Shown here: positions 33,324 to 49,434 of the stretch, piece after piece
How the letters are laid out: every line of letters starts with the position of its first letter
Position numbering within the stretch: position 1 is the stretch's first letter
Virus record (IMG/VR): IMGVR_UViG_3300008107_004055
Coordinates: 1 to 50,783 of that record
Direction: 5' to 3' (one strand)
DNA from: a virus
Length of the DNA: 50,783 nucleotides
Notes under the pieces: model-generated
The model's database searches: none
Told to the model about the DNA's origin: nothing
The model's input: the letters and a program-made list of their open reading frames with translations, nothing else
Made by a program: the position numbers and the translations under genes

Positions 33324-34553
33324 ATGAACTTTACACAATTTTTAACCGAATCAAAAGAAGGTAAGAACCTTCACCTAGAACACATTGAAGATGAGGTTCT
33401 GAATCGTGGTGTCTCTGGTGCTCGTGAAGCAATTAATTTCTTGCAATCTCTCCGAGATATGTTGGCAGGCCACTCACAATCACGGGTGAATGTTACAACA
33501 AAATGGGATGGTGCACCTGCTGTATTTTGCGGTATCAACCCTGAGAATGGTAAATTCTTTGTTGGTACTAAAGGCATATTCAATGCAAATCCAAAATTGA
33601 ATTATACTGATGCAGACATTGATGCAAACCATACTTCAGAAGGTTTAAACTCTAAACTCAAAGTTGCATTGCGTTATCTGCCTAAGTTAGGCATTAAAGG
33701 TATTCTGCAAGGCGACATGATGTTTGCAAAAGGTGATATTAACAAACAAGTTATTGATGGTCAATCATACATCACCTTTCAACCAAATACAATTGTTTAT
33801 GCCGTTCCTTCTGATGCTAAGTTGGCTCGTATGATGCTTGATGCTCAAATGGGTATTGTGTTTCATACATCATACACAGGCAAGACGATGGCTGATATGA
33901 AGGCCTCATTCAATATTGATATTGGCCATTTGACTACAACTAAAGATGTTTGGTTCCGTGATGCATCATTCACCGATGCTTCTGGTACTGCCACATTTAC
34001 CGCAGAAGAAACTGCTGCTATTACTGGTATACTCTCACAAGCGGGCAGAACATTTCAAACAATCAACCCATTGAATTTGAATCGTATTTCTAATAGTGAA
34101 ATTATTATGACTTACATTAAGACTTTTAATAACACAAAAGTCCGTGCAGGTCAAGCTATCAGAGACACAAGAGCTCACACATTTGAACTAACACGATGGG
34201 TTGAAGCAAAGCTAAATAAAGATATCATTGATGCAAAGAAAGATGAAACTAAAAAGAAACGTGTCAAAGAGAAAACAGAGATTATGCGTTTCTTCAATAG
34301 TGCAGCCAGAGATTTAAAGGCTATATTTGATTTGATGAACCTGTTGGTTAATGCAAAGAATATGATTGTTAAAAAGTTACAACAAATGAAACAAGTTACT
34401 GGTACATTCTTACGTACAGACGATGGTTTCAAAATTACTAACCCCGAAGGTTTCGTGGCGGTTGATAGACTAAAAGGCAATGCAGTTAAACTGATTGACC
34501 GATTAGAGTTTGCACACGCTAACTTCAATGCAACCAAAAATTGGAGCAATTAA
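33324..34553 (+). CDS. Nucleotidyltransferase/ligase-like protein with capsid-targeting-like N-terminus
   Basis: The 409-residue protein has the covalent nucleotidyltransferase motif I K60-W-D-G63 in TTKWDGAPAVF. It also has GTKGIF (motif III-like), LQGDMMF (Q129-G-D131, motif IV-like) and EGFVAVDRLKGNAVKL near the C-terminus as motif V. This is the order found in RNA/DNA ligases and capping enzymes. Family members in aquatic phages are mostly unnamed (DUF6267-like). The N-terminus MNFTQFLTE^S resembles the T4 capsid-targeting sequence. I start at ATG 33324, one base after the previous stop. A basic helical segment (KKDETKKKRVKEKTE) precedes motif V. Confidence 0.6.
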   Translation: MNFTQFLTESKEGKNLHLEHIEDEVLNRGVSGAREAINFLQSLRDMLAGHSQSRVNVTTKWDGAPAVFCGINPENGKFFVGTKGIFNANPKLNYTDADIDANHTSEGLNSKLKVALRYLPKLGIKGILQGDMMFAKGDINKQVIDGQSYITFQPNTIVYAVPSDAKLARMMLDAQMGIVFHTSYTGKTMADMKASFNIDIGHLTTTKDVWFRDASFTDASGTATFTAEETAAITGILSQAGRTFQTINPLNLNRISNSEIIMTYIKTFNNTKVRAGQAIRDTRAHTFELTRWVEAKLNKDIIDAKKDETKKKRVKEKTEIMRFFNSAARDLKAIFDLMNLLVNAKNMIVKKLQQMKQVTGTFLRTDDGFKITNPEGFVAVDRLKGNAVKLIDRLEFAHANFNATKNWSN

Positions 34554-34835: not shown

Positions 34836-35171
34836 ATGCGATTTAAAGAATACGAAGAATTGTTAGAAGCCGCATATGCCGGCAACATTGGTATTATGGA
34901 ACTAATCAAGTTCAAACAGAAGGCAAACGACAAACAGAAAAAAGAGTTTGATGACCATGTGAAGAACAAACGTCACGAACAGGCTTGGAAAGTCGTCCAA
35001 GATGTGACTGGCGTAAAACTACATAAGAGTGTGCATGAAGAAACAAAGCCTGATATTCTTCCTAAATCAGGTGCAGGTGCATGGGGAACAGATGAATTGG
35101 CAAACACCTATAAAAAGGGAACGCCAGGTCAAAACATTGCCAAATTTAAAGATTACAAACGAACTAAGTAA
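34836..35171 (+). CDS. Small conserved phage protein (YAGNIG-type) with targeting-like N-terminus
   Basis: The 111-residue protein begins MRFKEYEELLE^AAYAGNIGIMELIKF. The first eleven residues resemble a capsid-targeting peptide with an L-L-E cleavage-like site, followed by a common phage helical domain (QKKEFDDHVKNKRHEQAWKVVQDVTGVKL). The C-terminal half is Lys/Gly-rich. It follows the WPNR protein by one base. Function is unknown; packaging in the head is a hypothesis. Confidence 0.5.
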   Translation: MRFKEYEELLEAAYAGNIGIMELIKFKQKANDKQKKEFDDHVKNKRHEQAWKVVQDVTGVKLHKSVHEETKPDILPKSGAGAWGTDELANTYKKGTPGQNIAKFKDYKRTK

Positions 35172-35188
35172 ACCAACTGGAGTATATT

Positions 35189-36022
35189 ATGAAAGACTTG
35201 ATTATAGGTGCAAGTACCAATTACGATTGGAACAAATTAAAATATTGGATTAATTCCATTAACAAATCAGGGTTTGAAGGCGATAAAGTCCTTATTCTGA
35301 TGAACTGTGATGCAGCCACAGTTAAGAAAGTGAACGAAGCAGGTTTCAAGGTCATTGGTTTTAACCAAGACCAACAAGGCAACCTGCAATACGAATCACA
35401 AATGCCGATTCACGTTGAACGATTCGGCCACATCTACGAATATCTCCGTAAAAACGAATATCGCTACGTCATTACTACAGACGTAAAAGATGTAATCTTC
35501 CAACAAAACCCTGTTGACTGGTTAGAAGCAAATCTAACCTCTGAAAATTTGGTCTTCTCATCTGAAAGTATTTTATACAAAGATGAACCATGGGGTGACC
35601 AAAATCTATTAGAAACCTACGGCCCATACGTACACGAAAATTTTAAAAACAATGAGATATTTAATGTTGGCGTTCTTGCTGGTACTGGTAGTGCGATGCG
35701 TGATTTGGCTATCAACATCTTCACAGCAGCAACAAACAGGCCGATACCTATATGCGACCAATCTACGTTCAACTTCATGGTCTCTATGAGTCCATATCGT
35801 GAAACAAGTTTGTACAAACGCTCTGAAGATGGTTGGGCTTGCCAGTTGGGTACAACAGTTGACCCATCTAAGATTCATCAATTCAAACCATTGTTGTTAG
35901 AACCATCACCAACTATTGATGGTGATACAGTAACTACATCAAAGGGTACACCATACTATATCGTACACCAGTATGATAGAGTTCCTGAATGGCGTAAATT
36001 GATTGAGGTGAAATATGGCTAA
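35189..36022 (+). CDS. Putative glycosyltransferase (nucleotide-diphospho-sugar family)
   Basis: The 277-residue protein contains YVITTDVKDVIFQQNP, where D98 and D101 form the DxxD/DxD-like motif at the end of a Rossmann-like strand. SSESILYKDEPWGDQNL follows, as in a group of phage and bacterial nucleotide-diphospho-sugar transferases. FNVGVLAGTGSAM and DQSTFNFMV are further family-like blocks. GGAG precedes the ATG. It opens the second glycan cassette and overlaps the next gene by 8 bases. The acceptor is unknown. Confidence 0.65.
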   Translation: MKDLIIGASTNYDWNKLKYWINSINKSGFEGDKVLILMNCDAATVKKVNEAGFKVIGFNQDQQGNLQYESQMPIHVERFGHIYEYLRKNEYRYVITTDVKDVIFQQNPVDWLEANLTSENLVFSSESILYKDEPWGDQNLLETYGPYVHENFKNNEIFNVGVLAGTGSAMRDLAINIFTAATNRPIPICDQSTFNFMVSMSPYRETSLYKRSEDGWACQLGTTVDPSKIHQFKPLLLEPSPTIDGDTVTTSKGTPYYIVHQYDRVPEWRKLIEVKYG

Positions 36023-36257
36023 TGCCTTAGTAATGTCTGGTCATCTACGGACATTTAAAGACATTGCTGAAGAGGTTAAACATTTTGTTTCGTTGAATGA
36101 ACTTGATGTTTACCTTTATATTTGGGATGAAAACAACCAAGATGATATTGATTATGTTGTAAAGACCTTACAACCAGTTAAATGGTTGGCTGAGAAGAAT
36201 GAACTGTATGCACAAGAATTCTTTGATGCTGAAGACCGAATCTCAAAGAAGAAATGA
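36015..36257 (+). CDS. N-terminal part of a frameshifted glycan-synthesis protein
   Basis: The 80-residue frame begins MANALVMSGHLRTFKDIAEEV, similar in form to the next intact gene (36656), and runs to TGA at 36255-36257. The downstream frame continues the same protein as NELIEKEYDNIVYSRFDTRL. Removing one A from the AAA before the TGA (36252-36254) would join the two into about 212 residues. It could be a disrupted gene, a sequencing or assembly indel in an A-rich run, or a +1 frameshift at AAA-TGA. Confidence 0.6.
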   Translation: MANALVMSGHLRTFKDIAEEVKHFVSLNELDVYLYIWDENNQDDIDYVVKTLQPVKWLAEKNELYAQEFFDAEDRISKKK

Positions 36258-36654
36258 GTTGATTGAAAAAGAATATGACAACATTGTGTACAGTCGTTTT
36301 GATACTAGGTTGACCACATTCAAGGTACGACCATTGGTTGAACAGTACAAAGATGCCGTGATTACACCAACAAATGAACAATATGGTATGGTGTCTGATA
36401 TCTTTGCTATTATTCCATGGCAACACAGAGAAGGCTATTTCTTCTACAATCGTGCAGAAGATATTTTGAATCGTAGGTTTAATAAGAAGACCAAAGAATG
36501 GTTGACTGAGAAGTTTTTCTGGCCAACTGGTCAAAGAGATATTGTTTTACACGATGAGAACAGATATTGTCCTCACCTGTTGTGTATGAGAAACTATTTT
36601 GAATCTAATACACCATACCTTGTGATTGATTTGCCTGTTTATATTAAGAGATAA
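36199..36654 (+). CDS. C-terminal part of the frameshifted glycan-synthesis protein
   Basis: This frame can be read from ATG 36199, but the first part overlaps the upstream frame and looks out of register. The meaningful protein starts near 36250 with NELIEKEYDNIVYSRFDTRLTTF. YSRFDTRL parallels IRSRFDFAL in the next gene, and VSDIFAIIPWQHREGYF parallels its FGNDQFAFSSSRNM region. So this is the C-terminal half of a paralogue of 36656-37360. A start codon with a ribosome site is not evident, which supports a frameshifted single gene. Confidence 0.6.
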   Translation: MNCMHKNSLMLKTESQRRNELIEKEYDNIVYSRFDTRLTTFKVRPLVEQYKDAVITPTNEQYGMVSDIFAIIPWQHREGYFFYNRAEDILNRRFNKKTKEWLTEKFFWPTGQRDIVLHDENRYCPHLLCMRNYFESNTPYLVIDLPVYIKR

Positions 36655-36655
36655 T

Positions 36656-37360
36656 ATGAAAATTGCATTATGTGTATCTGGCCAACCTAGAGGCCTTGCA
36701 ACTGCCTTCCAGTATGTCAAAAAGAATCTGCTTGACAAACACGATGTGACAGTATTTGCTCATCTTTGGCAAGACTCAACTAAAGATTTGGCACCATTGT
36801 GGATGTACGAGCCAAAGAAATTTGAACTTGAACAACCAATGAACCCTGATTTGTCAAAGTACACCAGAGTTCCACCTCCACAACCAAACTGGAAAGTAAA
36901 GAATCCTGCCCTATCAACATATGCACAATTCTACTCTTTGATGAAGGCTAATAATTTAAAGAGAGAACATGAAAATGATTACAAGATGACCTTTGATTGG
37001 GTCATTCGTTCTCGTTTTGATTTTGCATTGAATACTGAAATACCATTTGCAGAGTTGGACAATACCAAGTTGTATATTCCAAACTGCCGAATGACACCAA
37101 ACAGAGATTTTGGAAATGACCAGTTTGCTTTCTCATCGTCACGCAACATGGATAAGTATTGTAATGTGTTTAATCGTATAGATGAATTCTATGACATTGG
37201 TGTTACGATGATTGGTGAAGATATGATGAGTATGAATTGGAAAACCACAGGTTTAACTGGTGAGAACCTTGTGTACTGCAATATGAATCATGCTTTCCCT
37301 CCCGGCCCACACAATGGAACATGGCATTCATTGGTGAGGGAAGACTTTGAAAAGTGGTAA
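36656..37360 (+). CDS. Putative glycan/capsule biosynthesis protein
   Basis: The 234-residue protein starts MKIALCVSGQPRGLATAFQYV at ATG 36656, two bases after the previous stop. It has VTVFAHLW, FDWVIRSRFDFAL and NDQFAFSSSRNMDKY. These blocks occur in small phage and bacterial proteins of glycosyltransferase type encoded near polysaccharide genes. The RxRFD motif may replace DxD. It is a paralogue of the frameshifted gene before it. Function beyond glycan synthesis cannot be specified. Confidence 0.55.
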   Translation: MKIALCVSGQPRGLATAFQYVKKNLLDKHDVTVFAHLWQDSTKDLAPLWMYEPKKFELEQPMNPDLSKYTRVPPPQPNWKVKNPALSTYAQFYSLMKANNLKREHENDYKMTFDWVIRSRFDFALNTEIPFAELDNTKLYIPNCRMTPNRDFGNDQFAFSSSRNMDKYCNVFNRIDEFYDIGVTMIGEDMMSMNWKTTGLTGENLVYCNMNHAFPPGPHNGTWHSLVREDFEKW

Positions 37361-38099
37361 AGTATTAAAAGAGTTAAAGGGTCATTCTAACAGCCATGTT
37401 TACCTAATGCAAGATGGTGATACTGTCTTTGTTAGGAAAACTGGTGACATTGACCGAAACTTGGAAAGATTTGATTCTCTTTCCAAGTTAAACTTGAGCC
37501 TGCCTAAAATCTATGAGATTACAGGCACATATTATGATATGGAATATATCTCTAGTTTAGAGATGAAGAAGTATTTGCCTACAAATAAAGTTGATAAATT
37601 AGTTGACTTTATTAAGAATACCATGTATAATCTATCAAAGAATACCATTGAGAAAGATTATACTGAAACTTACCGCAAGAAACTGGCCTCGTTTGACTTC
37701 AACAAGTTTGATATGCCATTCACATCCGAAGAACTACTAGATAAGTTACCAAAGGTTCTTCCATCTTCAGAGTATCATGGTGATTTCACACTAGAAAACA
37801 TTCTCTATGATACAAACCAAGATGAGTTTGTATTGATTGACCCATTGACTACAGAGTATGATTCGTTTGTATTTGACTTGGCCAAATTAAGACAAGACCT
37901 TGTGTGCAAGTGGTTTATCAGAAATGACAATGTATATTTGGATTCAAAACTGTATGCCATCATAGACAAATTGAATGGTTTTGTCTATAATGAGAATCAT
38001 AACTTACTGATTCTGATGTTGATGAGAGTTTTGCCTTATACACACAATGAAAAAGATAAAGAATTTTTAATGACAGAAGTGAGAAGATTATGGAAATAA
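37347..38099 (+). CDS. APH/choline kinase-like phosphotransferase
   Basis: The 250-residue protein has the aminoglycoside-phosphotransferase/choline-kinase catalytic loop H144-G-D146-F-T-L-E-N151 and the metal-binding I-D165-P in FVLIDPL. An N-terminal beta sheet with VFVRKTG supplies the ATP-binding lysine. The likely start is TTG 37347, six bases after GAGGG, because the next ATG would delete that sheet. It overlaps the preceding gene by 14 bases and the nucleotidyltransferase gene by 10. In glycan clusters such kinases phosphorylate sugars, choline or ethanolamine. Confidence 0.75.
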   Translation: MKSGKVLKELKGHSNSHVYLMQDGDTVFVRKTGDIDRNLERFDSLSKLNLSLPKIYEITGTYYDMEYISSLEMKKYLPTNKVDKLVDFIKNTMYNLSKNTIEKDYTETYRKKLASFDFNKFDMPFTSEELLDKLPKVLPSSEYHGDFTLENILYDTNQDEFVLIDPLTTEYDSFVFDLAKLRQDLVCKWFIRNDNVYLDSKLYAIIDKLNGFVYNENHNLLILMLMRVLPYTHNEKDKEFLMTEVRRLWK

Positions 38100-39115
38100 T
38101 TATGCCTTGTGCGGGTCTATCGACTCGCTTTCCCAATATGCGACCAAAGTACCTGTTGTCAGACTATAACAATAGGTTGATGATTGAGAATGCAGCCAAG
38201 AACTTTATTGGTAAATACAACGTCACGATTGCTATTCTGAAACAACACAATGAGATGTTTAATGCAGAGAATAAATTGCGTGAGGCCTTTGGTGATAAAG
38301 TTAACATTGTTGTGTTAGATGAACCAACAAGTGGTCCTGCCGATACAGTCTATCAGGCCATTATGAAGGCTGAATATTTCTTCACATCAGTCTCACCAAT
38401 GTTAATCAAAGACTGTGATGGTTTCTACGATTCAGATTTGGTTGATGGTAATGCCATCTATGTTTCTAAGTTGTCAAAGAATCCAGACATTCGTAATGCA
38501 CCTGCAAAGAGTTACACCATCACCAATGAACAAGGCATTATTACCTCTGTTGTTGAGAAACAGATTGTCAGTAATTCATTCTGTGTTGGTGGTTATCAGT
38601 TTGCAAGCATTGGTGAGTACGTTGATACGTTTGAGAAACTGAAAGACAATGCCACTTCTGAAATCTTTGTGTCAAACATCATTGATTATATGATTTCAAA
38701 TGGTGCAGTATTCAATGAGAAAGAAGTTGAGAACTTTGTTGATGTTGGTACTGCCGATGATTGGTTTAAATTCAATAACAAGCCAACATACTTCTGTGAC
38801 ATTGATGGTACAATCATTAAGACTAAAGACTTCCATGATGACCCATATGAACCAATTCAAAAGAATGTTGATGCCTTGTTGAAAGAACAAGCCCGTGGTT
38901 GTAAACTGGTGTTTGTAACTGCTCGTAAGAAACGATATGAAGAATACACCAATAAGATTCTGACTGAGATGGGTTTTGTAAACTATGTGTTGGTGATGGA
39001 AGCAAATCATTCACGCCGTGTATTGATTAATGATTATGCCAACTCCAACCCATTCCCTTCTGCTGTTGCGTTGAACTTGAAACGTGATAGTGATAATCTT
39101 GGAGATATGATATGA
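38090..39115 (+). CDS. Sugar-phosphate nucleotidyltransferase fused to HAD phosphatase
   Basis: The 341-residue protein has an N-terminal NTP-transferase domain starting MPCAGLSTRFPNMRPKYLL, with the nucleotide loop and the Lys of PKYLL. LDEPTSGPADTVYQA and KDCDGFY follow as in GlmU/RmlA-like enzymes. From about 230 a HAD domain follows with FCDIDGTIIKT (D237, D239) and VTARKKR. Together it could activate a sugar-1-phosphate and hydrolyse another phosphate. It overlaps the kinase-like gene upstream and the epimerase downstream (ATGA). Such fusions occur in LPS and capsule clusters. Confidence 0.8.
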   Translation: MEIIMPCAGLSTRFPNMRPKYLLSDYNNRLMIENAAKNFIGKYNVTIAILKQHNEMFNAENKLREAFGDKVNIVVLDEPTSGPADTVYQAIMKAEYFFTSVSPMLIKDCDGFYDSDLVDGNAIYVSKLSKNPDIRNAPAKSYTITNEQGIITSVVEKQIVSNSFCVGGYQFASIGEYVDTFEKLKDNATSEIFVSNIIDYMISNGAVFNEKEVENFVDVGTADDWFKFNNKPTYFCDIDGTIIKTKDFHDDPYEPIQKNVDALLKEQARGCKLVFVTARKKRYEEYTNKILTEMGFVNYVLVMEANHSRRVLINDYANSNPFPSAVALNLKRDSDNLGDMI

Positions 39116-40110
39116 ACATTCTGATTACTGGTGGTGCAGGTGGTATTGGTTCAACTCTATGCATTGAATTGGCCAAGAACGGTCATACAGTAGTTGCACT
39201 AGATGATTTCAGTCATGGTTACATGGAGAATCTATTTGATGGTGGTAAACAAGTCTGTGATGCAGTACCACTTGATATCAGAAAGACAAAGAAACTAACA
39301 AAGCTTTTGCTATTTAACAAGACTGATGTTATAGTGCATTTGGCAGCGTTAACATCTTTACCTGAGTGTGAATCTAATCCTGCTGAGTGCTTGAGTGTGA
39401 ATGTTGCAGGTACTGCCTCTGTTCTCAAGGCAGCCAAAGATGCAGGTGTCAAACGAACCATTGTTGCCAGTACATCAGCCATCTATGAAGGTAATACTGA
39501 ATCAGAGGCACCATTTACTGAGGACATACAAGTTAAACCATCATTGTTCTATCCATTGTCAAAGAAACTAATGGAAGATGTGGTGCAATCATATATTGCC
39601 AACTATGACATGGATATTGTGACACTACGATTCTTTAATGTGTTTGGACCAAGGCAAGATGTTCATCGTCCATCACCACCACTTCTAAATTATATCGTAA
39701 AACAAGTTGCTAAGCAAGAACCATGCACGTTCTATTCAAATGGTGAGCAAAAGCGGGATTATGTTCACGTTGATGATGTGGTAAAGTTGATTGAACTTTG
39801 CATTAATAAACCAAAGGCCAAAGGACAAATATACAATGTGTGTACCGGCACATTAACATCGGTGAAAGATGTTATTGGTTCTGCTGTGACCGTATTCGGT
39901 GATTTGAAGTATGAATTTAAACCTTCAAAAGAATATTGGTCTAGTTACAATCTATCTATATCTAAATTGGCAGTTGAAAGAGAAGTCAATAAGTTTTCTT
40001 TAGGTTCTTGTTCAAAGGCCATGTGGGAACTTGGTTGGACACCAAACAAAGGTATTGAATACTTGATGGCAGAAACTATGAAACAAAATTATGAGCTTAT
40101 TACTAGATAA
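39112..40110 (+). CDS. NAD-dependent sugar-nucleotide epimerase
   Basis: The 332-residue extended SDR has G7-x-x-G10-x-x-G13 (ITGGAGGIG), LDDFSHGYMENL, and the catalytic Y147-x-x-x-K151 in FYPLSKK. VVASTSAIYEG precedes it with the catalytic Ser. RFFNVFGPRQD and KRDYVHVDDVV are classic UDP-hexose 4-epimerase family segments. It acts on NDP-sugars, probably the product of the nucleotidyltransferase just upstream. It overlaps the next gene by 20 bases. Confidence 0.92.
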   Translation: MNILITGGAGGIGSTLCIELAKNGHTVVALDDFSHGYMENLFDGGKQVCDAVPLDIRKTKKLTKLLLFNKTDVIVHLAALTSLPECESNPAECLSVNVAGTASVLKAAKDAGVKRTIVASTSAIYEGNTESEAPFTEDIQVKPSLFYPLSKKLMEDVVQSYIANYDMDIVTLRFFNVFGPRQDVHRPSPPLLNYIVKQVAKQEPCTFYSNGEQKRDYVHVDDVVKLIELCINKPKAKGQIYNVCTGTLTSVKDVIGSAVTVFGDLKYEFKPSKEYWSSYNLSISKLAVEREVNKFSLGSCSKAMWELGWTPNKGIEYLMAETMKQNYELITR

Positions 40111-40804
40111 AAACTTATTCATCGTTACCTCTGCATTGGTGCCAAACATTGGTGTGATTCCACCACAAGATAGATTCTATCAAACTATTAGTACATTGAT
40201 ATCGTTGCGTAAAAAATTACCTGATGATTACATCTTCTTCTCTGATGGTTCACCTAATCCTGTGCCTAAAGAATGGGAAGATGAGATTTCAAAGTATGCT
40301 AATGCAATGGCGTTTTGGGCTCAAGACCCTGAGATTAAACAATTAGCAGGTGCAGGCCAAAAGAGTCAGGCTGAGATTGTGTTATTGTTTAAGACACTAC
40401 AGGCCTTGAAAGGCAACCCACAATTACATCCAATCATGCAGGATACAAAACGAATCTTTAAGTTCTCTGCACGAAGTATATTGCATGATAGCTTTGATAT
40501 TAAAGAATATGATAACCTATTTGGCAAGTATGTGTTTAAGACACGAATACCATCTTGGTTGTCACAAGATAAACAGGCACAAACAACTGACAATTTGTTT
40601 ATCACACGCATGTATTCTATGTGTCCATCACTTATAGATGATTATTTGCAAACATTAGTTAAGTGTTATAATACTGTAAACGAACATGGGATTGATACAG
40701 AACACGCCCATTATCAGCACATAGATAAGAAGTATCTGATTGAATTTGACAAACTGCATTGTGAAGGCATTATGGCCGGAACAGGCGCTACTGAGGTATA
40801 TTAA
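40091..40804 (+). CDS. Unrecognised protein of the glycan cassette
   Basis: The 237-residue protein starts with NLFIVTSALVPNIGVIPPQDRFYQTISTL, a typical Rossmann-like first strand and loop. It has YIFFSDGSPNPVP, FKFSARSILHD and ITRMYSMCPSLIDDYL. SARS-x-L and the F..R.PSW block resemble glycosyltransferase-like proteins (a lid with a Tyr/Arg-rich C-terminus), but no family is certain. The neighbours (epimerase before, methyltransferase after) support a glycan role. Confidence 0.45.
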   Translation: MSLLLDKNLFIVTSALVPNIGVIPPQDRFYQTISTLISLRKKLPDDYIFFSDGSPNPVPKEWEDEISKYANAMAFWAQDPEIKQLAGAGQKSQAEIVLLFKTLQALKGNPQLHPIMQDTKRIFKFSARSILHDSFDIKEYDNLFGKYVFKTRIPSWLSQDKQAQTTDNLFITRMYSMCPSLIDDYLQTLVKCYNTVNEHGIDTEHAHYQHIDKKYLIEFDKLHCEGIMAGTGATEVY

Positions 40805-41488
40805 ATGAACTTAAAAGAATATTGGCTGAACAACACCGGCAAAAAGATTACAAAATGGACACATTACTTTTGGGTGTATGACCGACACTTTGCGGCACTA
40901 AGAGATAAACCAATTAAGATGTTGGAGATTGGTGTATTGAATGGTGGTTCACTAGAGATGTGGAAGAAATACTTTCATCCTGATAGTACAATCGTTGGTA
41001 TCGATATCACACCAAGTTGCAAAGACTTTGAAGATACAGAAAACAATGTGCATGTACGCATTGGTGACCAATCTGACCCTGAGTTTCTGCAAAGCCTTGT
41101 AGATGAATTTGGTGAGTTTGATTTGGTGTTGGATGATGGCAGTCACCATGTTGCACATGTGAACAAAACATTCCAGTATTTGTATCCAAAGATTGCAAAG
41201 AATGGTACTTACTTCATTGAAGACACACATGCGGCCTATTGGTCATCACATGGTGGTTCTATTGACCATCCAGATTCTATCAACAATGTGACTAAGAAGA
41301 TGGTCGATAAGATTAATGCTGAACACACCCGTGGTCAGGTGGAACCAGATTTCTTCACATATGAAACTAAATGCATGTCGGTGTATGATAGTATGGTTGT
41401 ATTTGAGAGAGGAAATGTAGGCGCCAAACGACCAGAGGAGTATGGCGGACCAAAATCTGATGAGGTATTCATCATCAAAACTCACTAA
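40805..41488 (+). CDS. Class I SAM-dependent methyltransferase
   Basis: The 227-residue protein has the SAM-binding loop MLEIGVLNGGSLEMW (L40-W52) and TIVGIDITPSCK. FDLVLDDGSHHVAH is the form found in CmcI/rhamnosyl O-methyltransferase-like enzymes that need a metal bound to the DDGSHH motif. YFIEDTHAAYW is a further family-like block. It would methylate a hydroxyl of a sugar or small molecule. It ends the second glycan cassette. Confidence 0.8.
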   Translation: MNLKEYWLNNTGKKITKWTHYFWVYDRHFAALRDKPIKMLEIGVLNGGSLEMWKKYFHPDSTIVGIDITPSCKDFEDTENNVHVRIGDQSDPEFLQSLVDEFGEFDLVLDDGSHHVAHVNKTFQYLYPKIAKNGTYFIEDTHAAYWSSHGGSIDHPDSINNVTKKMVDKINAEHTRGQVEPDFFTYETKCMSVYDSMVVFERGNVGAKRPEEYGGPKSDEVFIIKTH

Positions 41489-41528: not shown

Positions 41529-43928
41529 ATGAAATTTAGAGAATTTATTACTGAGAATAAAGAAAAACATGCGGTCATGGCGTTTGGCCGTATGAACCCA
41601 CCTACAACCGGACATGAAGTTCTGGTTCATAAGGTTAAATCAGTAGCGAACCAAGTTGGTGGTTCTCATCACATTGTCCTGTCCCACTCACAAGATGCCG
41701 CTAAGAACCCTCTTACATCGGCACAAAAAGTCAAGCACGCTAAGAGATTCTTTCCTGATACGAACATCTCTGTAGCAACCAAAGAAGAACCAAACTTCTT
41801 AACACAAGCAGCCAAACTACACAAACAAGGTGTTACTCACCTTCACATGGTTGCTGGTTCTGACCGTGTTGCCGAATACCATAAATTGTTACACAAATAC
41901 AATGGTACACACGAAGGCGCACTATTCAATTTCAAAAAGATTACACTTCACAATGCAGGTGCTCGTGACCCTGATGCTGAAGGTACATCTGGTATGTCCG
42001 CTTCAAAAATGAGGTCACATGCTAACACAAACAGTTTTGATGACTTTAAACAAGGCATTCCAAAACATGTACCTGAACACCATGCAAAAGAATTGTTCCG
42101 TGATGTTCGTAAAGGTATGAACATTAAAGAATCTGTAGACCTCAACGAAGAATTCGAAATGCTTTCTGAAGGTGTACACGACCAAGGCATCTTCAAGGCT
42201 GTGTTCTTAGCAGGCGGTCCAGGTTCTGGCAAAGACTATGTGATGAATAACACATTAGATGGCCAAGGTTTAACTGAAATCAATTCTGATAAGGCACTTG
42301 AGTTCTTAATGGACAAAGAAGGCCTTGACAAGATGATGCCTGCTGACGAAACAGAGAAACGAAACCTTGTCCGTGGTCGTGCAAAGAACATTACAGAATT
42401 ACGTCAACAACTTGCATTGTTAGGTCGCAATGGCCTGATTATCAATGGCACAGGTGATGATGTAACTAAAACCAAAAACATCAAAGACCAATTAGAAAAG
42501 TTGGGTTATGAAACATCTATGTTACTGGTTAACACAAGAGATGATATTTCAGCACAACGCAACCTAGAACGTGGTCAACGTGGTGGTCGTGCAGTACCAG
42601 AACCAATTCGTAAAGAGAAATGGGACAATGTACAGTATGCTCGTACTGAGTATGCACAAATGTTTGGTGCAAACTATTCTGAATTTGATAACTCTGAAGA
42701 CTTGCGTGAAGCCGATCCAGAAACAGTTAAGGCTAAGAAGGCTGAGTTACTGAGTTTGTTTAACAAGTTCAAAGAGTTTGTTGCGGCACCACCAAAGTCA
42801 CAAGAGGCACAATTCTGGACTGCCAATGAATTGGATAAGAAAGATTCTCTACCAGTTCCTAAAGATGGTGCAGAACAATTACCTGCATCTAATGATGAAA
42901 CTGCTAGTGAAGCAAGTAAACTAGGTTTACAATACTATGGTTTCGGTCGTTATGGTAAGAATGGTAAAGTAACACACCGTTCTGTGCATGGCCAGTTGGT
43001 AATGGTTAATAAAGAAGAACCAAAACAACCAAAGATTCCAGTTAATAGTTCATCACAAAAACCTGCTAAGAAGGTTGTTAATGAATCTGTTACAGTTTCC
43101 ATTACTGGTGACACAGCAGAAGAAGTTAATCAGATGTTTGCTATGATGCATGGCGGAACAACATCAGAAAATAAACAAACAGAACAATATCAATTCACAG
43201 ACAATACGGAAGTATTGACTCTTGGTACAAGATATGAATCTATTGGTGATAGACCAGATAGTATGACGTTCACCAATGATGATGTTCTTATAGAAAAAAA
43301 TGAAGTGTTGAAAGACAAAAATGGTAAAGTGCGTGTCTTTATGCTTAGAAATTCAGCAGCAAAAGAAGCACACACTAAAAATGGAACTATTGTAAAATAC
43401 AATAATGGTTATATTGTTAAACTTAATGGAGAAAATAAAAATGCTAGATTATCTGAAAAAACTATTCACACCAAAACAACCGGCACCAGTGGAAGCCTCA
43501 TTACCGAAAGTAGAGGAAGCACCATTGGTTCAGTTGGAACAAGTGGCACCGCAAGAACCATTGCAGAGCACAGAGCCAGTGGTAACTACACCAGAACCAG
43601 CTCCAGTGCAACAGACAGCACCGGTACCGGCACAGAAACCTGCGCCGAAGAAACAACCCGTAGCAAACTCACGCTCTCAGAAATCCGTACCCGCCAAAAA
43701 GAAAAAGTAATAGAGTCTATTAATAATGGCGAATCTGGTCTATCAATGGCTGCATCTGGTGAAAACCTTGGTCGTGATGGTTTGACAAGAACCAAAACAC
43801 TAAAGAAACCACTAGAAGAATTAACTGGTGATGAAACTGGTGCATCAATTGGTGACCAAAAAGAAGGTGAACTGAAAAGAGTTGGCATTAATCTTAAAAC
43901 ATTTAAATCAAAGAAGTTTGTAGGATGA
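41529..43928 (+). CDS. Nucleotidylyltransferase-kinase fusion with capsid-targeting-like N-terminus
   Basis: The 799-residue protein begins MKFREFITE^NKEKHA, like a T4 capsid-targeting peptide. A nucleotidylyltransferase domain (about 12-200) carries AFGRMNPPTTGHE, the (H/T)xGH motif, and GMSASKMR, the ISxxxxR-type motif. A P-loop kinase domain follows with FLAGGPGSGKDYV. This is the NadR-like order (adenylyltransferase plus kinase), though NMN specificity is unproven. A Ser/Thr/Gly-rich stretch (about 640-725) overlaps a nested gene in another frame. The C-terminus (ELTGDETGASIGDQKEGELK) is common in these phage fusion proteins. Degenerate TAAATA repeats (41487-41500) precede it. Confidence 0.75.
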   Translation: MKFREFITENKEKHAVMAFGRMNPPTTGHEVLVHKVKSVANQVGGSHHIVLSHSQDAAKNPLTSAQKVKHAKRFFPDTNISVATKEEPNFLTQAAKLHKQGVTHLHMVAGSDRVAEYHKLLHKYNGTHEGALFNFKKITLHNAGARDPDAEGTSGMSASKMRSHANTNSFDDFKQGIPKHVPEHHAKELFRDVRKGMNIKESVDLNEEFEMLSEGVHDQGIFKAVFLAGGPGSGKDYVMNNTLDGQGLTEINSDKALEFLMDKEGLDKMMPADETEKRNLVRGRAKNITELRQQLALLGRNGLIINGTGDDVTKTKNIKDQLEKLGYETSMLLVNTRDDISAQRNLERGQRGGRAVPEPIRKEKWDNVQYARTEYAQMFGANYSEFDNSEDLREADPETVKAKKAELLSLFNKFKEFVAAPPKSQEAQFWTANELDKKDSLPVPKDGAEQLPASNDETASEASKLGLQYYGFGRYGKNGKVTHRSVHGQLVMVNKEEPKQPKIPVNSSSQKPAKKVVNESVTVSITGDTAEEVNQMFAMMHGGTTSENKQTEQYQFTDNTEVLTLGTRYESIGDRPDSMTFTNDDVLIEKNEVLKDKNGKVRVFMLRNSAAKEAHTKNGTIVKYNNGYIVKLNGENKNARLSEKTIHTKTTGTSGSLITESRGSTIGSVGTSGTARTIAEHRASGNYTRTSSSATDSTGTGTETCAEETTRSKLTLSEIRTRQKEKVIESINNGESGLSMAASGENLGRDGLTRTKTLKKPLEELTGDETGASIGDQKEGELKRVGINLKTFKSKKFVG
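43441..43710 (+). CDS. Nested out-of-frame Pro/Ala-rich protein
   Basis: This 89-codon reading frame lies inside the 799-residue gene in a different frame. It starts MLDYLKKLFTPKQPAPV, continues as a Pro/Ala/Val/Gln-rich chain (TPEPAPVQQTAPVPAQ) and ends in KKKK. GGAG at 43428-43431 is nine bases before its ATG, a good ribosome site. The composition looks like a real linker or tail-like protein, while the main frame here is a low-complexity Ser/Thr/Gly stretch. It could be an overprinted gene or an insertion kept in frame by the larger gene. Confidence 0.45.
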   Translation: MLDYLKKLFTPKQPAPVEASLPKVEEAPLVQLEQVAPQEPLQSTEPVVTTPEPAPVQQTAPVPAQKPAPKKQPVANSRSQKSVPAKKKK

Positions 43929-44218
43929 AATCATTTAAAGCATTCATAACAGAAACGCCTGCTTGGACACGCAAAGAAGGCAAGAACCCTGAGGGTGGTT
44001 TAAACCGCAAGGGTATTGCTTCTTATCGTGCTGCAAATCCAGGTTCTAAACTATCGATGGCGGTTACAACTCCACCATCAAAGTTGAAACCTGGTTCTAA
44101 AGCGGCTAATCGTAGAAAATCATTCTGTGCTCGTATGGGTGGCATGGAAGGTCCAATGAAGAAACCCAATGGTGAACCAACACGCAAAGCATTAGCGTTG
44201 AGGAAGTGGAACTGTTAA
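43925..44218 (+). CDS. DUF6321-like protein with capsid-targeting-like N-terminus
   Basis: The 97-residue protein starts MKSFKAFITE^TPAW, the closest match in the window to the T4 internal-protein targeting peptide. The rest, RKEGKNPEGGLNRKGIASY, then RRKSFCARMGGMEGP and KPNGEPTRKALALRKWNC, is a compact basic domain found in many phages (DUF6321-like) with a conserved Cys at the end. It overlaps the preceding gene by ATGA. Nucleic-acid binding in the head is a reasonable inference because it is strongly basic. Confidence 0.6.
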   Translation: MKSFKAFITETPAWTRKEGKNPEGGLNRKGIASYRAANPGSKLSMAVTTPPSKLKPGSKAANRRKSFCARMGGMEGPMKKPNGEPTRKALALRKWNC

Positions 44219-45076
44219 ATGGCACAGTATAGAGTAGAAACTGGTTCTTACGACCCAAAAATATCCAATCATTTTGAAGTAATGATGTTGGCTAATAATG
44301 CGGCCGGAGATATCGTTACACAAAGTAATCCATTACCAGTTTCATTGATTAACACCAATACTACTCTAAATGCACCTTGGGAACTTCAAGTTGGCCGAGG
44401 AAAAGTTGCTACTGTAACTTCAATTAACATTCAAGGTTACAATGTTGCTATGCCATCAAGTTGGTGTACCGCATGGGAACTTGCTAATAGTGCTGGGGAT
44501 TATGTATATCCTTCTTCTTCAGTTGCAATGACATTTACAAGTGAATCAGCAGAATCATTGACAATGACAGTTTCTGGTTTAGATTCTTCTTACACACCAA
44601 AGATTTCTACTGTAACATTTACAAACAGTAATACTGGAGTTGTAACGAGTGGAACGAATTCATTTTTCCGTATTAATAGAATGCAGATTACATCAAATAC
44701 TTCTGTTGGTGCTATATCTGCAACAAATAATGGAACAACATATTCATATATAGCTCCTGGAACAGGTATTAGTCAAGCTAGTATATACACAGTTCCAGCT
44801 GGTCACACATTTTATTTACTCCGTGTAGTTGCATACACCACAAATAATGGTAATCAACATTGCACATACAGAATTTCTACACAAACAATTTCTGGTGGAA
44901 TAACAACGCCACAAATTGTTTTAACGGCACCGTTTCAACAAGTATATTCAACATTAAGAGTTGTACCAAGAGCTTATTCTGCTAACACAGACATTAAATG
45001 GCAGTTGTATCAAACATCACCTGCACCAGGTTCGGTACAACTTGAAGGTATATTAATTCCCAATTCTGCACCATAA
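44219..45076 (+). CDS. Probable virion structural protein (beta-rich)
   Basis: The 285-residue protein is Ser/Thr/Asn-rich with repeated beta strands (ATVTSINIQGYNVAMPSSW, ITSNTSVGAISATNNGTTYSY, TFYLLRVVAYTTNNGNQHC). It ends SVQLEGILIPN, a tail seen in T4-like aquatic phage structural proteins. No enzymatic motif is visible. It starts directly at the previous stop codon and precedes other late-type genes. A decoration, fibre or neck protein is the guess. Confidence 0.55.
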   Translation: MAQYRVETGSYDPKISNHFEVMMLANNAAGDIVTQSNPLPVSLINTNTTLNAPWELQVGRGKVATVTSINIQGYNVAMPSSWCTAWELANSAGDYVYPSSSVAMTFTSESAESLTMTVSGLDSSYTPKISTVTFTNSNTGVVTSGTNSFFRINRMQITSNTSVGAISATNNGTTYSYIAPGTGISQASIYTVPAGHTFYLLRVVAYTTNNGNQHCTYRISTQTISGGITTPQIVLTAPFQQVYSTLRVVPRAYSANTDIKWQLYQTSPAPGSVQLEGILIPNSAP

Positions 45077-45099: not shown

Positions 45100-46287
45100 A
45101 TGTTCGGAGATAACAAACAAATTAGAGATGTAGCTGAAGTAGCTAGAAAAATTATGATGGGTGAGAAACTTCATCCAAACCAACAAAAGTTGGATGTACA
45201 TGAGCCAGAGAAAGACAAATTGACGGCTGATGACTTCAAAAAACTTCGTGCAGGCAAAAAACCTGATGTAAAGAAAGAAGAAGTTGAGATTGAAGAAGAA
45301 AGCCATCAGTCAAAGACTACAATGAAGCACATTCCAAATCCATCACCTGCACAAAAACAAGCAGCTAAAGATATTAAACCTGGCGTTGGCGGTTATCGTG
45401 ACCGTATTGATATGCTTAAAAGTGCCGGTGTTAAAGAAGAAGTTGAAGAAATTGATGAAGCTACGATGACACACATCACTCTTGGTGCGAAAGTTAAAGA
45501 TAAAGAAGGTGGTTATAATCAAGATGTACACCATAAAGGTAAAAAGATTGGTCACATTGAAGCATATAAACACCGCACTGGGATGAGATATGGTTCACAC
45601 CATGATGCTTCTGGTGACTCAACAGCTGGCAACAGAGATGCGGAAGAATCTATTGCTGATATAAGATTTGCTCATGCCGACCACTTGAAGTCTATGAAGA
45701 AAGAGCAAGTTGAACAGATGGATGAAGTTAAGATGGCTGATTTGCCATCAACTAAAGTTCAAGGCCGTTCATATGGTTCATCTAAGCCACAACCAAGTGC
45801 CTTTGATGTGCTAAAAGGACCAAAAGAAAAAGAATTGAAATCTATTGAATCTGAGAAGAAGAAAAAGAAAATGTCTGAAATGGTTGCCCTCTATAAAGAT
45901 GGTGGCATGAAGGCATTCTTTGAATCTATTAAGAAAGAAGATTTGATTTCAGAAGAACCTGATTCAGAACAATTCGCAAAAGAATTGGAAGACCAAAAGA
46001 AACGTGCCGCTGGTACTAAACCACAAGCTGATGTTGCAAAGGCTGCTGTTTTATCAGTTAAGCAAGAAGCAACTGAACAAGACATTCAAGTTATCAATGC
46101 AGATGCAGCCAATGGTGTTGACCAAGTTAACATTGAAGAACGCACATTGACTGCTGCTGAGACAGACAAGAAAGAAGAAATTGTTAAATCTATGAAAAAA
46201 GGTTTAGCAGGTTTTAAAGAGCGTTATGGTAAAGATGCTAAGTCTGTAATGTATGCAGCTGCCACAAAGCAGGCCAAAAAAGACTAA
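45100..46287 (+). CDS. Lys/Glu-rich phage protein with repeated acidic cleavage-like motifs
   Basis: The 395-residue protein is rich in Lys, Glu and Ala. Spaced along it are EEVEIEEE (I64-E67), EEVEEIDEA (I118-D-E120) and EQVEQMDEV (M207-D-E209). These fit the (I/L/M)-x-E pattern of T4-type prohead protease sites. The C-terminus (LAGFKERYGKDAKSVMYAAATKQAKKD) is a common ending of T4-like aquatic phage proteins. A ribosome site AAGGAGAA precedes the ATG. Scaffold or internal-head protein is the inference. Confidence 0.55.
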   Translation: MFGDNKQIRDVAEVARKIMMGEKLHPNQQKLDVHEPEKDKLTADDFKKLRAGKKPDVKKEEVEIEEESHQSKTTMKHIPNPSPAQKQAAKDIKPGVGGYRDRIDMLKSAGVKEEVEEIDEATMTHITLGAKVKDKEGGYNQDVHHKGKKIGHIEAYKHRTGMRYGSHHDASGDSTAGNRDAEESIADIRFAHADHLKSMKKEQVEQMDEVKMADLPSTKVQGRSYGSSKPQPSAFDVLKGPKEKELKSIESEKKKKKMSEMVALYKDGGMKAFFESIKKEDLISEEPDSEQFAKELEDQKKRAAGTKPQADVAKAAVLSVKQEATEQDIQVINADAANGVDQVNIEERTLTAAETDKKEEIVKSMKKGLAGFKERYGKDAKSVMYAAATKQAKKD

Positions 46288-46288
46288 A

Positions 46289-48652
46289 ATGGAAAACTTC
46301 AAAAGTTTTTCTGAAGCAATACAACCTGGTTCTGTTCCTGAACCAGGTCGTGAAGCTGTTGGTGGTAGATTTAAATCTGCAGCACCAAAGAAACCAACAA
46401 AACCTGCACCATTTGTAACTAGTGAAGACACAAAGGTTGATGTGCAAAGTTTTTCTGATTTCTTAGAGGGTAGATGTTGGCCTGGTTATAAACCAAAACC
46501 AGGTAAGACACCTTACTCACCTGGTTCTTGCGTGAAAGAATCTCCTGATGCAGAACTTAAAGAAGATTTGCGTAAATGGTTTAGTAAAACTGATCCAAAA
46601 GGTGGTTGGAAAAGAATCAATAGTAAAGGTGAGGCCATTGGTCCTTGTGCAAGAGAGCCTGGTGAACCTAAACCTAAATGTATGTCTAACGAAAAGAGAG
46701 CTGCTCTAAGTAAGAAAGAAAGAGCATCTGCCGTTGCAGCTAAAAGAAAACATGACCCTAATCCTGAGAGAAAGGGTGCACCAATAAATGTGTCTAACTT
46801 TGGAAAAGGAAAGATAAGCGAAGATATGGAAAACTTAGAAGAAAAAAATGTACCAACTAGTCCTGAAAAGTGGGCACAGGCCAAAGCACAAGCAAAGGCT
46901 AAATTTGATGTGTACCCTTCGGCATACGCCAATGGTTGGGCATCTAAAAAATATAAAGAGATGGGTGGCGGATGGAAATCTGTTGCAGAAGAAACAGAGA
47001 ACCTTGAAGAAGGTCGCCCATCACAACGCCATCCATTGGAAGGCCATGAGTATCACAAAAAGTCTGATGAGGCTTTAATCCACATTGCTAAAGATGCTCA
47101 TGCAGCCGCAGAAGCAATGAAGTCACACAATACTACTGCTGAGAACAAGTATCGTGACCAGGCCAATGACTCTGCAACAGTAAGACATTTCCGCAAAACA
47201 AGTGGAATGCCTGACTGGTATAAAAAGAAGTATGGTCATATGAAAGAAGATGCTAAACAAGATGATAAGTCTTCAACTGCTTTAAGTGGACTTGTTGCTA
47301 AAAAGAATTTGAAACAAGCCGAAGGCAAAAATAAGTCGCAAGAGTTTATCAATAAAATGACAAGTAAAGTGAATGCAGCTAAACGTCTTAAAGAAGAAGA
47401 TGCATACGATAAAGATGCTAAACCTTCTGACAAACCACATGATAAAGAGGCGGCTGCAAAGCGTGCTAAGATTGCCGCAGTAATGGCAAGAAGGAAAATG
47501 GCTAAAGAAGAAGTTGAACAATTAGATGAGTTGTCACCTAGTACTTTACAAAGTTATAAAGTTGCTGGTCACAAGAAATATGATAGTATTAGAAACAATA
47601 CTGATGCCGATTCGATGACTAAGAAATCCAAATTGGAAAAAGGTATTAAAACTGCTCACGCAAAACAATATCCATCCAAACCTGCAGCAGCTGCACCAAA
47701 GAAAGACCCTAATAGTCGTGGCTATGAACAAGGTCGTTACATGGGTGACAGCGTTGAACAAGATAATGAAAATAGAATTGATGAATTGTCCAATGATATG
47801 TTGGGTCGTTACAAGACTGCCGCTGGTGCCGATGCATCTAAGGCTGACAAAGCTGGTGACTATAACAAAGGCAACAAACGATTTAGTGGTATTATGAGAG
47901 CAACTAAGAAACAAATGGCTAATGACATTGTTACACGAGCATCTGCTGTTACAGAAGCTGCAGTTGTTACAGATAAAGATAAGATTGTTTCTGTACATGA
48001 CAAAAAAGGCAGTAGCCTCCGTGTGTTAGCAAGTAACCTTGGTCATTACAGAGATGCAGGTTACAAAGCCGTTAGAGAAGCAAAAGAGAAAACTGAGTAT
48101 GATTACGAAGGTGACATGGCCCGTGGTCAATTACAAAGTGTAATCAATAATGCTCAAAGAGTACATGACATGTTAGAAGATAATGATAATCTTCCTGAGT
48201 GGGTACAATCAAAGATTACCCTTGCAGAAGATTATATCTCAACAGTTGCCAACTATATGATGAGTGAGATTGATGAATCCATTGCTGATGACAAGTATGG
48301 TTCTGCAGCCTCTGAAACATTAGTCACTAAACCTTACAAAGAACCGGCTAAGAAGATGAAAGAATCTAAAGATGAATCACCACCTTTTGATGGTCCATAC
48401 GTTAAGCGCACAGGTACAGTAACAGACAAATCTGGTGCTAAACACACAGATATGTCCAGAGTTAGAGACTTGGCTCGTACAGCAATGAAGAAACAAGCCA
48501 GTTCTTACAAAGCACCTAAGAAACTAGGTGAAGAAGCTTCTCGCAAGGCAGAGATTGTCAAAACTGCTGCCAAGAAGAAAAAACCTGATAGTAAAGAAGA
48601 TACATTCCAGGCAGAACCTGAGTTGTCATCTACTATCACTAAAAATTATTAA
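46289..48652 (+). CDS. Large Lys/Ala/Glu-rich mosaic protein with repeated DELS motifs
   Basis: The 787-residue protein begins MENFKSFSEAIQPGS. It contains a small conserved phage domain (about 90-170) with DPKGGWKRIN, a separate block KWAQAKAQAKAKFDVYPSAYANGW (about 200), and repeats of the form (L/I)DELSxxxLxxYKxA at L412-D-E414 and I497-D-E499, plus I661-D-E663. The modules are those of DUF5872-like phage proteins. (L/I)-D-E fits prohead protease sites. It starts one base after the previous stop. It may be a head-internal or scaffold protein processed into peptides. Confidence 0.5.
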   Translation: MENFKSFSEAIQPGSVPEPGREAVGGRFKSAAPKKPTKPAPFVTSEDTKVDVQSFSDFLEGRCWPGYKPKPGKTPYSPGSCVKESPDAELKEDLRKWFSKTDPKGGWKRINSKGEAIGPCAREPGEPKPKCMSNEKRAALSKKERASAVAAKRKHDPNPERKGAPINVSNFGKGKISEDMENLEEKNVPTSPEKWAQAKAQAKAKFDVYPSAYANGWASKKYKEMGGGWKSVAEETENLEEGRPSQRHPLEGHEYHKKSDEALIHIAKDAHAAAEAMKSHNTTAENKYRDQANDSATVRHFRKTSGMPDWYKKKYGHMKEDAKQDDKSSTALSGLVAKKNLKQAEGKNKSQEFINKMTSKVNAAKRLKEEDAYDKDAKPSDKPHDKEAAAKRAKIAAVMARRKMAKEEVEQLDELSPSTLQSYKVAGHKKYDSIRNNTDADSMTKKSKLEKGIKTAHAKQYPSKPAAAAPKKDPNSRGYEQGRYMGDSVEQDNENRIDELSNDMLGRYKTAAGADASKADKAGDYNKGNKRFSGIMRATKKQMANDIVTRASAVTEAAVVTDKDKIVSVHDKKGSSLRVLASNLGHYRDAGYKAVREAKEKTEYDYEGDMARGQLQSVINNAQRVHDMLEDNDNLPEWVQSKITLAEDYISTVANYMMSEIDESIADDKYGSAASETLVTKPYKEPAKKMKESKDESPPFDGPYVKRTGTVTDKSGAKHTDMSRVRDLARTAMKKQASSYKAPKKLGEEASRKAEIVKTAAKKKKPDSKEDTFQAEPELSSTITKNY

Positions 48653-48703: not shown

Positions 48704-49057
48704 ATGTCTTTATGGGGAAATTTAGATGCTGCTAACAATGCACCAAAGTTCGCAGGAACTGGTGGTATTGGCTTGACAGCTAACACACAACAATTATTTT
48801 CAAACACAACTTTTGCTACAACAAGTTCTACATTAGGTGTAGCAGGTCAAGCAATTGGTGTTTTTGGACTTAGTGCTTTAGAAGCATCCAATACAGGCGC
48901 TGGAAAAGCTAATACAGCTAGCGCACATGCTGGTTGGGTGATGCGTAAAGAAGGCACTGGCGGCCGTGCTGGTCGTATTCAAACAGAAACATTGGTTGCT
49001 ATGGGTTCCATGACTGGTGACCACGCAGCTGCGAATACGACTTACCCAGGCGTCTAA
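48704..49057 (+). CDS. Small Gly/Ala/Thr-rich putative virion protein
   Basis: The 117-residue protein starts MSLWGNLDAANNAPKF and is Gly/Ala/Ser/Thr-rich, with AGWVMRKEGTGGRAGRIQTETLVAMGSM near the end. MxLWGN openings are common in T4-like aquatic virion proteins. It has a late promoter and a strong ribosome site. It overlaps the next gene by one base. A structural role is inferred from composition and expression context. Confidence 0.5.
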   Translation: MSLWGNLDAANNAPKFAGTGGIGLTANTQQLFSNTTFATTSSTLGVAGQAIGVFGLSALEASNTGAGKANTASAHAGWVMRKEGTGGRAGRIQTETLVAMGSMTGDHAAANTTYPGV

Positions 49058-49434
49058 TGCGATTCTCTGAATATATCCGTGAGATGGGTGTTGGTGCGGT
49101 GGCAACACCGATGGCCACGCCTTCTCTCATGGATACTAATTTAGATAGTCTTAACACACGTTTAGATTATGATACTGATGAGAAATTTATGTCTCCTGAA
49201 TCTGGTATACAAAGGATTCGTAGAGTGTTGCACCTATATGGGTATGACTTAGCACCACTCTACGATGCCGATCCAGAAGGAGAAGAAATAGTTATTGATT
49301 TGGATAATAATGTAGGCGTATACATTTTATATACTCTCACCGATGATAATCGTTATGAATTTTATGCTGAAGTAGGCAATGAAAGTCGTATGCAAGAACT
49401 TTTATCGGACGAGGGCACAGAAGAAGAAGAATAA
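49057..49434 (+). CDS. Conserved phage protein with capsid-targeting-like N-terminus
   Basis: The 125-residue acidic protein starts MRFSEYIRE^MGVGAV, a weaker match to the targeting peptide. It has FMSPESGIQRIRRVLHLYGYDLAPLYDADPEGEE and YILYTLTDDNRYEFYAEVGNES. This pattern resembles a conserved T4-like phage family with a helical then beta region. It ends with a run of Glu. Function is unknown; the neighbours suggest a virion context. Confidence 0.5.
   Translation: MRFSEYIREMGVGAVATPMATPSLMDTNLDSLNTRLDYDTDEKFMSPESGIQRIRRVLHLYGYDLAPLYDADPEGEEIVIDLDNNVGVYILYTLTDDNRYEFYAEVGNESRMQELLSDEGTEEEE

Follow-up and report, generated by a model that had tools for sequence, protein, structure and literature searches.

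Conserved [LIVM]-x-E joins between the shuffled modules of two adjacent proteins in a T4-like virus fragment, and their possible role in releasing head-internal cargo

The question raised by the locus considered here is what becomes of two adjacent proteins, P1 and P2 (Table 1), encoded in a virus record of 50,783 bases (IMGVR_UViG_3300008107_004055; this whole stretch, a fragment carrying T4-like replication genes, is referred to below as the window). A preliminary description had noticed five acidic strings built around (I/L/M)-D-E, and likened the two proteins to a self-processed head-internal polyprotein, with reference to the T4 prohead protease, which cuts after (L/I)-x-E, and to the degradation of T4 scaffold and internal proteins to peptides during maturation. 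The core of that idea, a head-internal polyprotein cut at such sites by the phage prohead protease, is strongly supported by comparison with relatives and indirectly by virion proteomes, while self-processing is not. On the strength of sequence comparisons we consider it highly probable that P1 and P2 are head-internal cargo polyproteins cut in trans by a gp21-like prohead protease; this reading is favoured because their modules start at [LIVM]-x-E whatever lies upstream, because the same modules occur alone behind T4-like leaders, and because long relatives encode the protease.

Module boundaries in P1 and P2 and the residues that precede them

The five strings are indeed present in the two open reading frames (ORFs), ending at EEVEEIDE/A (P1 residue 120), EQVEQMDE/V (P1 209), EEVEQLDE/L (P2 426), NENRIDE/L (P2 511) and SEIDE/S (P2 675), where a slash, as elsewhere in this text, marks a predicted cut; residues of P2 are counted from the ATG at 46253, and would be lowered by 12 for a start at the ATG at 46289 (MENFKSFSE), which is likely to be the true one. 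Such strings are commoner than in composition-preserving shuffles: [LIM][DE]E occurs nine times in P1 and P2 together as against 1.9 in the shuffles (1 in 1000 of which scored equally high), and [ED]..E.[LIM][DE]E occurs five times as against about 0.0 (0 in 1000), with a single further occurrence in all the remaining window proteins together. Plain [LI].E is not enriched in P1 (4 versus 3.7 expected from shuffles), implying that the signal lies in a motif at particular sites rather than in a count of triplets. Beyond the original five, junction sites were found in P1 at IEE 66, ISE 285 and IEE 347, and in P2 at LKE 104, ISE 190, LEE 197, LEE 253, MKE 332 and VRE 609.

A search of viral contigs with P2 gave more than 599 pattern matches, 560 of them confirmed, from which 80 loci were kept (25 in the case of P1); among isolate records P2 matched 349 phages, nearly all of them cyanophages, and the homologous gene (T4-GC 119) is flanked in two cyanophages by the small terminase gene and the large one. 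Matches to either protein span single modules, the order of which differs between viruses; P1 and P2 are mosaics, their modules being met again, in other arrangements, in hundreds of viral contigs. The [LIMV]xE sites are the points at which the ends of local alignments pile up, and in a motif-blind test on 577 such ends [LI]xE lay within 5 residues in 28% of cases, as against 16% at shifted positions (z 5.5), with no enrichment of [LI]xD or [LI]xK.

The residues preceding ten module starts were then collected from all relatives and collapsed to below 35% mutual identity, leaving 130 contexts. As the module starts had been fixed at the Glu of the window proteins, the weight rests on contexts from outside the window, which make up all but a few of the 130. 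Glu immediately precedes the module in 123 of them, and site position P3 is Leu, Ile, Val, Met or Phe in 120 (L 52, I 31, V 23, M 13); the information content is 2.70 bits at site position P1, 2.25 at P3, 0.87 at P2 and at most 0.57 elsewhere. Alignment across related phages thus finds the sites conserved, although the form originally quoted needs widening: (I/L/M)-D-E is common, but the Asp and the acidic run are optional (site position P2, the residue before the Glu, is D or E in 61 of the 130), and the site is better written [LIVM]-x-E. As T4 gp21 cuts C-terminal to the Glu of L/I-x-E (PMC9026906), the junction rule, judged from sequence, is that of the T4 prohead protease, and the joins have the sequence expected of gp21 substrates. 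The gp23 proteins of relatives keep [LIM]xE near the T4 maturation cut FLTE/A (as MLYE/T, MIYE/A, MLTE/A, LLTE/A, IMNE/T or AMFE/A), which provides a precedent for a P3 Met such as that of the QMDE site in P1.

Modules that had played no part in finding the rule provide an independent check. For the kinase module of a companion protein (41529-43928), [LIVMF]xE stands exactly at the predicted cut EMLSE/GVHD in 19 of 20 contexts, including short starts such as MIPFILKE/, MTEISKQLDE/ and MKSFYSFLEE/, and the module named here after its AAYAGNIG string, which stands alone at 34836, has the site in 6 of 6. A further case is DUF6321, which is a wider viral domain extending beyond this system: pooled over all viruses it has the exact site in 22 of 53 contexts, but when the loci are divided by background the site is found in 30 of 32 with other markers of the system and in 6 of 47 without them (Fisher p 1e-13), and the S77 protease was not found in nine long (51-118 kb) contigs with site-free DUF6321. 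With the presence of the site so dependent on the kind of virus, a structural role within the domain itself is disfavoured. In contigs with neither the system nor the S77 protease (L165-L244) the domain is also found by itself, as a small protein that starts MA(K/T)..AAW.

Leaders, protease and virion proteomes in relatives

T4 internal proteins carry a short N-terminal leader, in which, for IPIII, residues 4 and 7 matter for targeting and residues 8 and 10 for processing, a change of Glu to Asp at position 10 being reported to block the cut (PMC9026906). T4 IPII and IPIII start MKTYQEFIAE/A and IPI starts MKTFKEFTSTTTPVSTITE/A; similar, capsid-targeting-like leaders ending in [LI]xE are found in the window proteins starting at 41529, 43925, 33324 and 49057, and a weak one (MENFKSFSE) in P2. 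Several modules of the chains are met behind leaders elsewhere. The GRCWPGYK module, when first in other proteins, is preceded by MKKWSEFLE, MKSFKQHLE or MKRYKDFIAE, and the stand-alone kinase of Pelagibacter phage HTVC008M starts MIPFILKE/GLYDPGIF. Conversely, leader-like strings lie within chains, as in QSFKSFISE/GRPSQR (locus L004), KSFKDFTE/GAAWTKKSGK ahead of an internal DUF6321 in S-BM3, and TYREFIAE/G in S-SZBM1_194, the last being nearly the T4 leader itself, so that the chains look like fusions of once separate, leader-tagged internal proteins.

As to the enzyme, no prohead protease was found in the 50.8 kb window, which is a fragment, but Peptidase_S77 (gp21-like) scored above the cut-off in all nine of the long relatives searched. 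In one near relative (G001) the portal gene is followed in turn by those for two small proteins, a decoration-like protein, the protease, the gp22 scaffold and gp23, the gp22 homologue (T4_CASP) being a separate gene. Searches of Pfam and PHROG gave neither a T4_CASP/gp22 match nor a protease or metallopeptidase domain for P1 or P2; a self-processing polyprotein was rejected for this reason, and the candidate enzyme is the separate Peptidase_S77.

Published mass spectrometry of S-CREM2 virions (PMC10665884, Table 3), mapped onto OR473000, bears on whether such proteins reach the head. The virions contain gp160 (7 unique peptides), which proves to be a chain of P1/P2-type modules with LEE and ISE joins; gp137 (4) and gp136 (8), the former being the terminase-flanked homologue and ending in DUF6321; and the cytidylyltransferase gp154 together with gp6, gp13 and gp14 (PMC10665884), of which the last three bear leaders. 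A strict T4-like leader pattern is found in 6 of the 218 S-CREM2 proteins, 5 of these being in virions (p 0.003, or 2.4e-4 with named structural proteins left out), although a loose pattern over 20 residues discriminates weakly (7 in virions, 7 not). S-SZBM1 virions likewise contain a cytidylyltransferase (PMC9146016), which starts MRFRQFIIE. The S-CREM2 authors considered that such enzymes may be contaminants (PMC10665884); the leaders would argue otherwise. A separate observation concerns S-CREM2 gp12 (L128 7704-10313), which is present in virions and carries a Cas9-type nuclease annotation (taken as given in the record); near residue 25 it has a leader-like RFASFMAE/A.

Cargo, scaffold, linker or cap

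If P1 and P2 are indeed cargo, they would be recruited into the prohead core, P2 by way of its N-terminal T4-like leader, and the gp21-like Peptidase_S77 would cut after each [LIVM]-x-E to free some 6 small modules from P1 and 9-12 from P2; these would remain in the head with the DNA and would probably be ejected into the next host. Fusing or swapping modules at the cut site would then change the payload without need of a new gene or leader. The window companions (NMNAT-like plus kinase, DUF6321 and DUF6267) share leaders or joins with the system.

There are, however, clear caveats to this interpretation. The N-terminus of P1 lacks a classical leader; of 11 contexts of the NMNAT module start no more than 4 obey the rule, and DUF6267-NMNAT fusions have no site between the two domains, implying that the rule is not valid for every domain fusion. 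Within P2 the site at residue 609 is weaker than the others (Glu in 20 of 26 contexts), and inside the module that follows (610-672) LPE and LAE are conserved, although these would be expected to stay uncut. An AlphaFold model of P2 (70 rows) is poor, with a mean predicted local distance difference test (pLDDT) score of 59; helices are predicted at sites 511 and 609 and on either side of 426, although low-confidence loops contain or adjoin 190, 197, 253 and 332. Foldseek gave no match to the modelled structure in the PDB at E <= 0.001. As to the proteomes, S-CREM2 virions also yielded scaffold and protease peptides (PMC10665884), so that detection in virions cannot separate retained cargo from leftover core, and since the published tables give coverage rather than peptide ends, cleavage at the predicted Glu is something that we infer.

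The same scaffold and protease peptides lend some weight to another possibility, in which the prohead protease does cut the joins but P1 and P2, like T4 gp22 and gp67 with their several cut sites, belong to the core or scaffold and are degraded to free space for the DNA, the modules being spacers rather than delivered cargo; the Lys/Ala/Glu-rich segments, partly helical or of low confidence, would suit such a role. We regard this as unlikely. The near relative G001 has its separate gp22 homologue, conservation of the modules sets in at the cut site, they are found singly with leaders in front, and one of them, at a join of this kind, is a P-loop kinase. The sites coincide exactly with the N-terminal edges of conserved modules and appear made for setting them free, whereas the T4 scaffold is degraded. 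Internal [LI]xE is also absent from eight module families where 20 would be expected, although as the members are related this is only suggestive, and the count omitted the P2_609 family, with its conserved internal LPE and LAE, and the P1_285 family.

It might alternatively be supposed that the joins are never cut, and serve as recombination linkers in which a repeated acidic DNA segment promotes shuffling. EEVEQ(L/I)DE does recur with somewhat similar codons, the overall codon identity of linkers (0.72 versus 0.63 expected) weighs on this side and against cargo, and module order is strongly shuffled; but at P3 codon identity is at chance (0.329 versus 0.318) and yet the class of residue is held, many joins with no acidic run (GMIKE/, SPISE/, VVLE/) still keep [LIVM]xE, the site is present at gene starts too, and DUF6321 carries it only against the appropriate viral background. 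Such an explanation seems to us very improbable. Slightly less credible still is that the Glu and the hydrophobic residue form part of each module's own fold, as an N-terminal cap, and are conserved for structural reasons: this would account for their presence at module starts whatever lies upstream, but it would require a dozen unrelated modules to share both residues at equal spacing, and the DUF6321 fold mostly does without them in other viruses (6/47).

Returning to cargo polyproteins, a more general proposal would be that Kyanoviridae-like and related aquatic T4-like phages possess a plug-in payload, in which a domain of any kind, once it stands after an [LIVM]xE join or a capsid-targeting leader, is packed into the head, freed and injected, so that a few genes furnish each phage with an exchangeable collection of at least a dozen small effectors; on this broader claim our judgement is evenly balanced. 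The cargo reading, if right, would suggest a natural route for loading several proteins into one phage head. It would also provide a sequence rule for recognising which uncharacterised proteins of very abundant aquatic phages are carried inside the head, and at what points they are cut, would split many hypothetical proteins into definable modules, and would explain the NMNAT-like enzymes and kinases whose recurrence in cyanophage virion proteomes is a noted puzzle (PMC10665884, PMC9602691).

Table 1 Features of the window. Residues of P2 are counted from 46253; a slash marks a predicted cut.
Feature	Coordinates	Strand	Basis or relatives
P1, 395 aa (amino acids), mosaic	45100..46287	+	ORF, module recurrence
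P1 predicted pieces: residues 1-66, 67-120, 121-209, 210-285, 286-347, 348-395			
IEE/E, P1 residue 66	45289..45297	+	IEE or QDE at same join in relatives, before SHQ[SA]KTTMKH module
IDE/A, P1 residue 120	45451..45459	+	Glu 4/4, hydrophobic P3 4/4 dissimilar contexts
MDE/V, P1 residue 209	45718..45726	+	Glu and hydrophobic P3 in 6/6 contexts
ISE/E, P1 residue 285	45946..45954	+	Glu 11/11, hydrophobic P3 10/11 contexts
IEE/R, P1 residue 347	46132..46140	+	Glu and hydrophobic P3 in 12/12 contexts
P2, 799 aa, mosaic	46253..48652	+	ORF, DUF5872-like and other modules
P2 leader MENFKSFSE (FSE/A)	46289..46315	+	weaker capsid-targeting-like N-terminus, by likeness to T4 IPIII/IPII/IPI leaders
Internal leader-like join SFSDFLE/GRCWPGYK	46460..46468	+	module recurrence in other proteins
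LKE/D, P2 residue 104	46556..46564	+	Glu 17/18, hydrophobic P3 17/18 contexts, including stand-alone MKTFNTFVVE/DLRKWFSK
ISE/D, P2 residue 190	46814..46822	+	cluster of local-alignment ends
LEE/K, P2 residue 197	46835..46843	+	13/13 contexts
LEE/G, P2 residue 253	47003..47011	+	28/28 contexts, including stand-alone MIKFNEYTVLEE/GRPSQR and MKSLKQHITE/GRPSQR
MKE/D, P2 residue 332	47240..47248	+	cluster of alignment ends
LDE/L, P2 residue 426	47522..47530	+	5/5 contexts
IDE/L, P2 residue 511	47777..47785	+	7/7 contexts
VRE/A, P2 residue 609	48071..48079	+	Glu 20/26, hydrophobic P3 18/26 contexts; weakest site
IDE/S, P2 residue 675	48269..48277	+	IDE or VDE after this module in relatives listed
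Leader MNFTQFLTE and DUF6267 protein	33324..34553	+	Pfam E 2.7e-113
Leader MRFKEYEELLE and AAYAGNIG module	34836..35171	+	elsewhere internal after [LIVMF]xE, 6/6 contexts
Companion protein, 799 aa: leader MKFREFITE, NMNAT-like nucleotidyltransferase, zeta-toxin-like P-loop kinase, long tail	41529..43928	+	Pfam/PHROG
Predicted cut LSE/G (join EMLSE/GVHD) before kinase module	42162..42170	+	19/20 contexts
Stand-alone DUF6321 cargo (putative), leader MKSFKAFITE/TPAWTRKEGK	43925..44218	+	Pfam E 1.7e-22
Protein with leader MRFSEYIRE	49057..49434	+	sequence

Known systems and neighbouring genes

The nearest parallels are the T4 internal proteins (IPs) IPI, IPII and IPIII, and Alt, which are alike in having the leader MK-x-(F/Y)-x-x-F-(I/L)-x-E, the cut rule L/I-x-E, and a small basic or enzymatic cargo that varies between phages; the comparison made here with the IPs extends to the leaders only. 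Each of them has its own gene and undergoes one leader cut (Alt also a C-terminal one), whereas here a single chain comprises many modules, every join bearing a site, and at times a further copy of the leader lies inside. T4 gp22 and gp67 resemble P1 and P2 in having several gp21 sites, but after degradation they are for the most part lost from the head, while the sites described here are the edges of conserved modules. In phiKZ and SPN3US, head and ejection proteins are cut after x-x-E by a gp21-like protease, and long propeptides are cut several times; in the parts of that literature available to us the SPN3US motif is AxE, the cuts remove propeptides, and no multi-cargo chain is described. 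Polyvalent proteins, described from phages and conjugative elements (Iyer et al. 2017, PMC5512222), also combine many unrelated domains per chain and are considered to be carried into the host along with the DNA, but these have been linked to zincin-like autoproteases, whereas a rule for a prohead protease acting in trans would explain the joins seen here; no mention of cyanophages was found in the text of that paper. An earlier description of such cargo chains was not found in the open-access literature searched, outside which most subscription journals lie.

Among the companions, the NMNAT-like and kinase domains that are fused across an [LIVM]xE join at 41529-43928 are encoded by separate genes in HTVC008M, and the DUF6267 protein (33324-34553) contains, behind its capsid-targeting-like leader, a KWDGAP string resembling motif I of nucleotidyltransferases and ligases. 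A scan for late promoters found none immediately 5' of P1 or P2. The protein encoded at 44219-45076 (phrog_8198) resembles S-CREM2 gp176 (24% identity, E 3e-11), which is present in virions with 39% coverage, and on this resemblance it is likely to be a virion protein adjoining P1 and P2. Further away, the region 35189-41488 appears, by eye only, to hold sugar-handling genes (glycosyltransferase-, nucleotidyltransferase-, epimerase- and methyltransferase-like), and an HNH-type endonuclease-like ORF (9906-10361), also recognised by eye, separates two ORFs, one phosphoesterase-like (8778-9854) and the other ATPase-like (10358-12070), which to the eye alone resemble the T4 gp47/gp46 pair.

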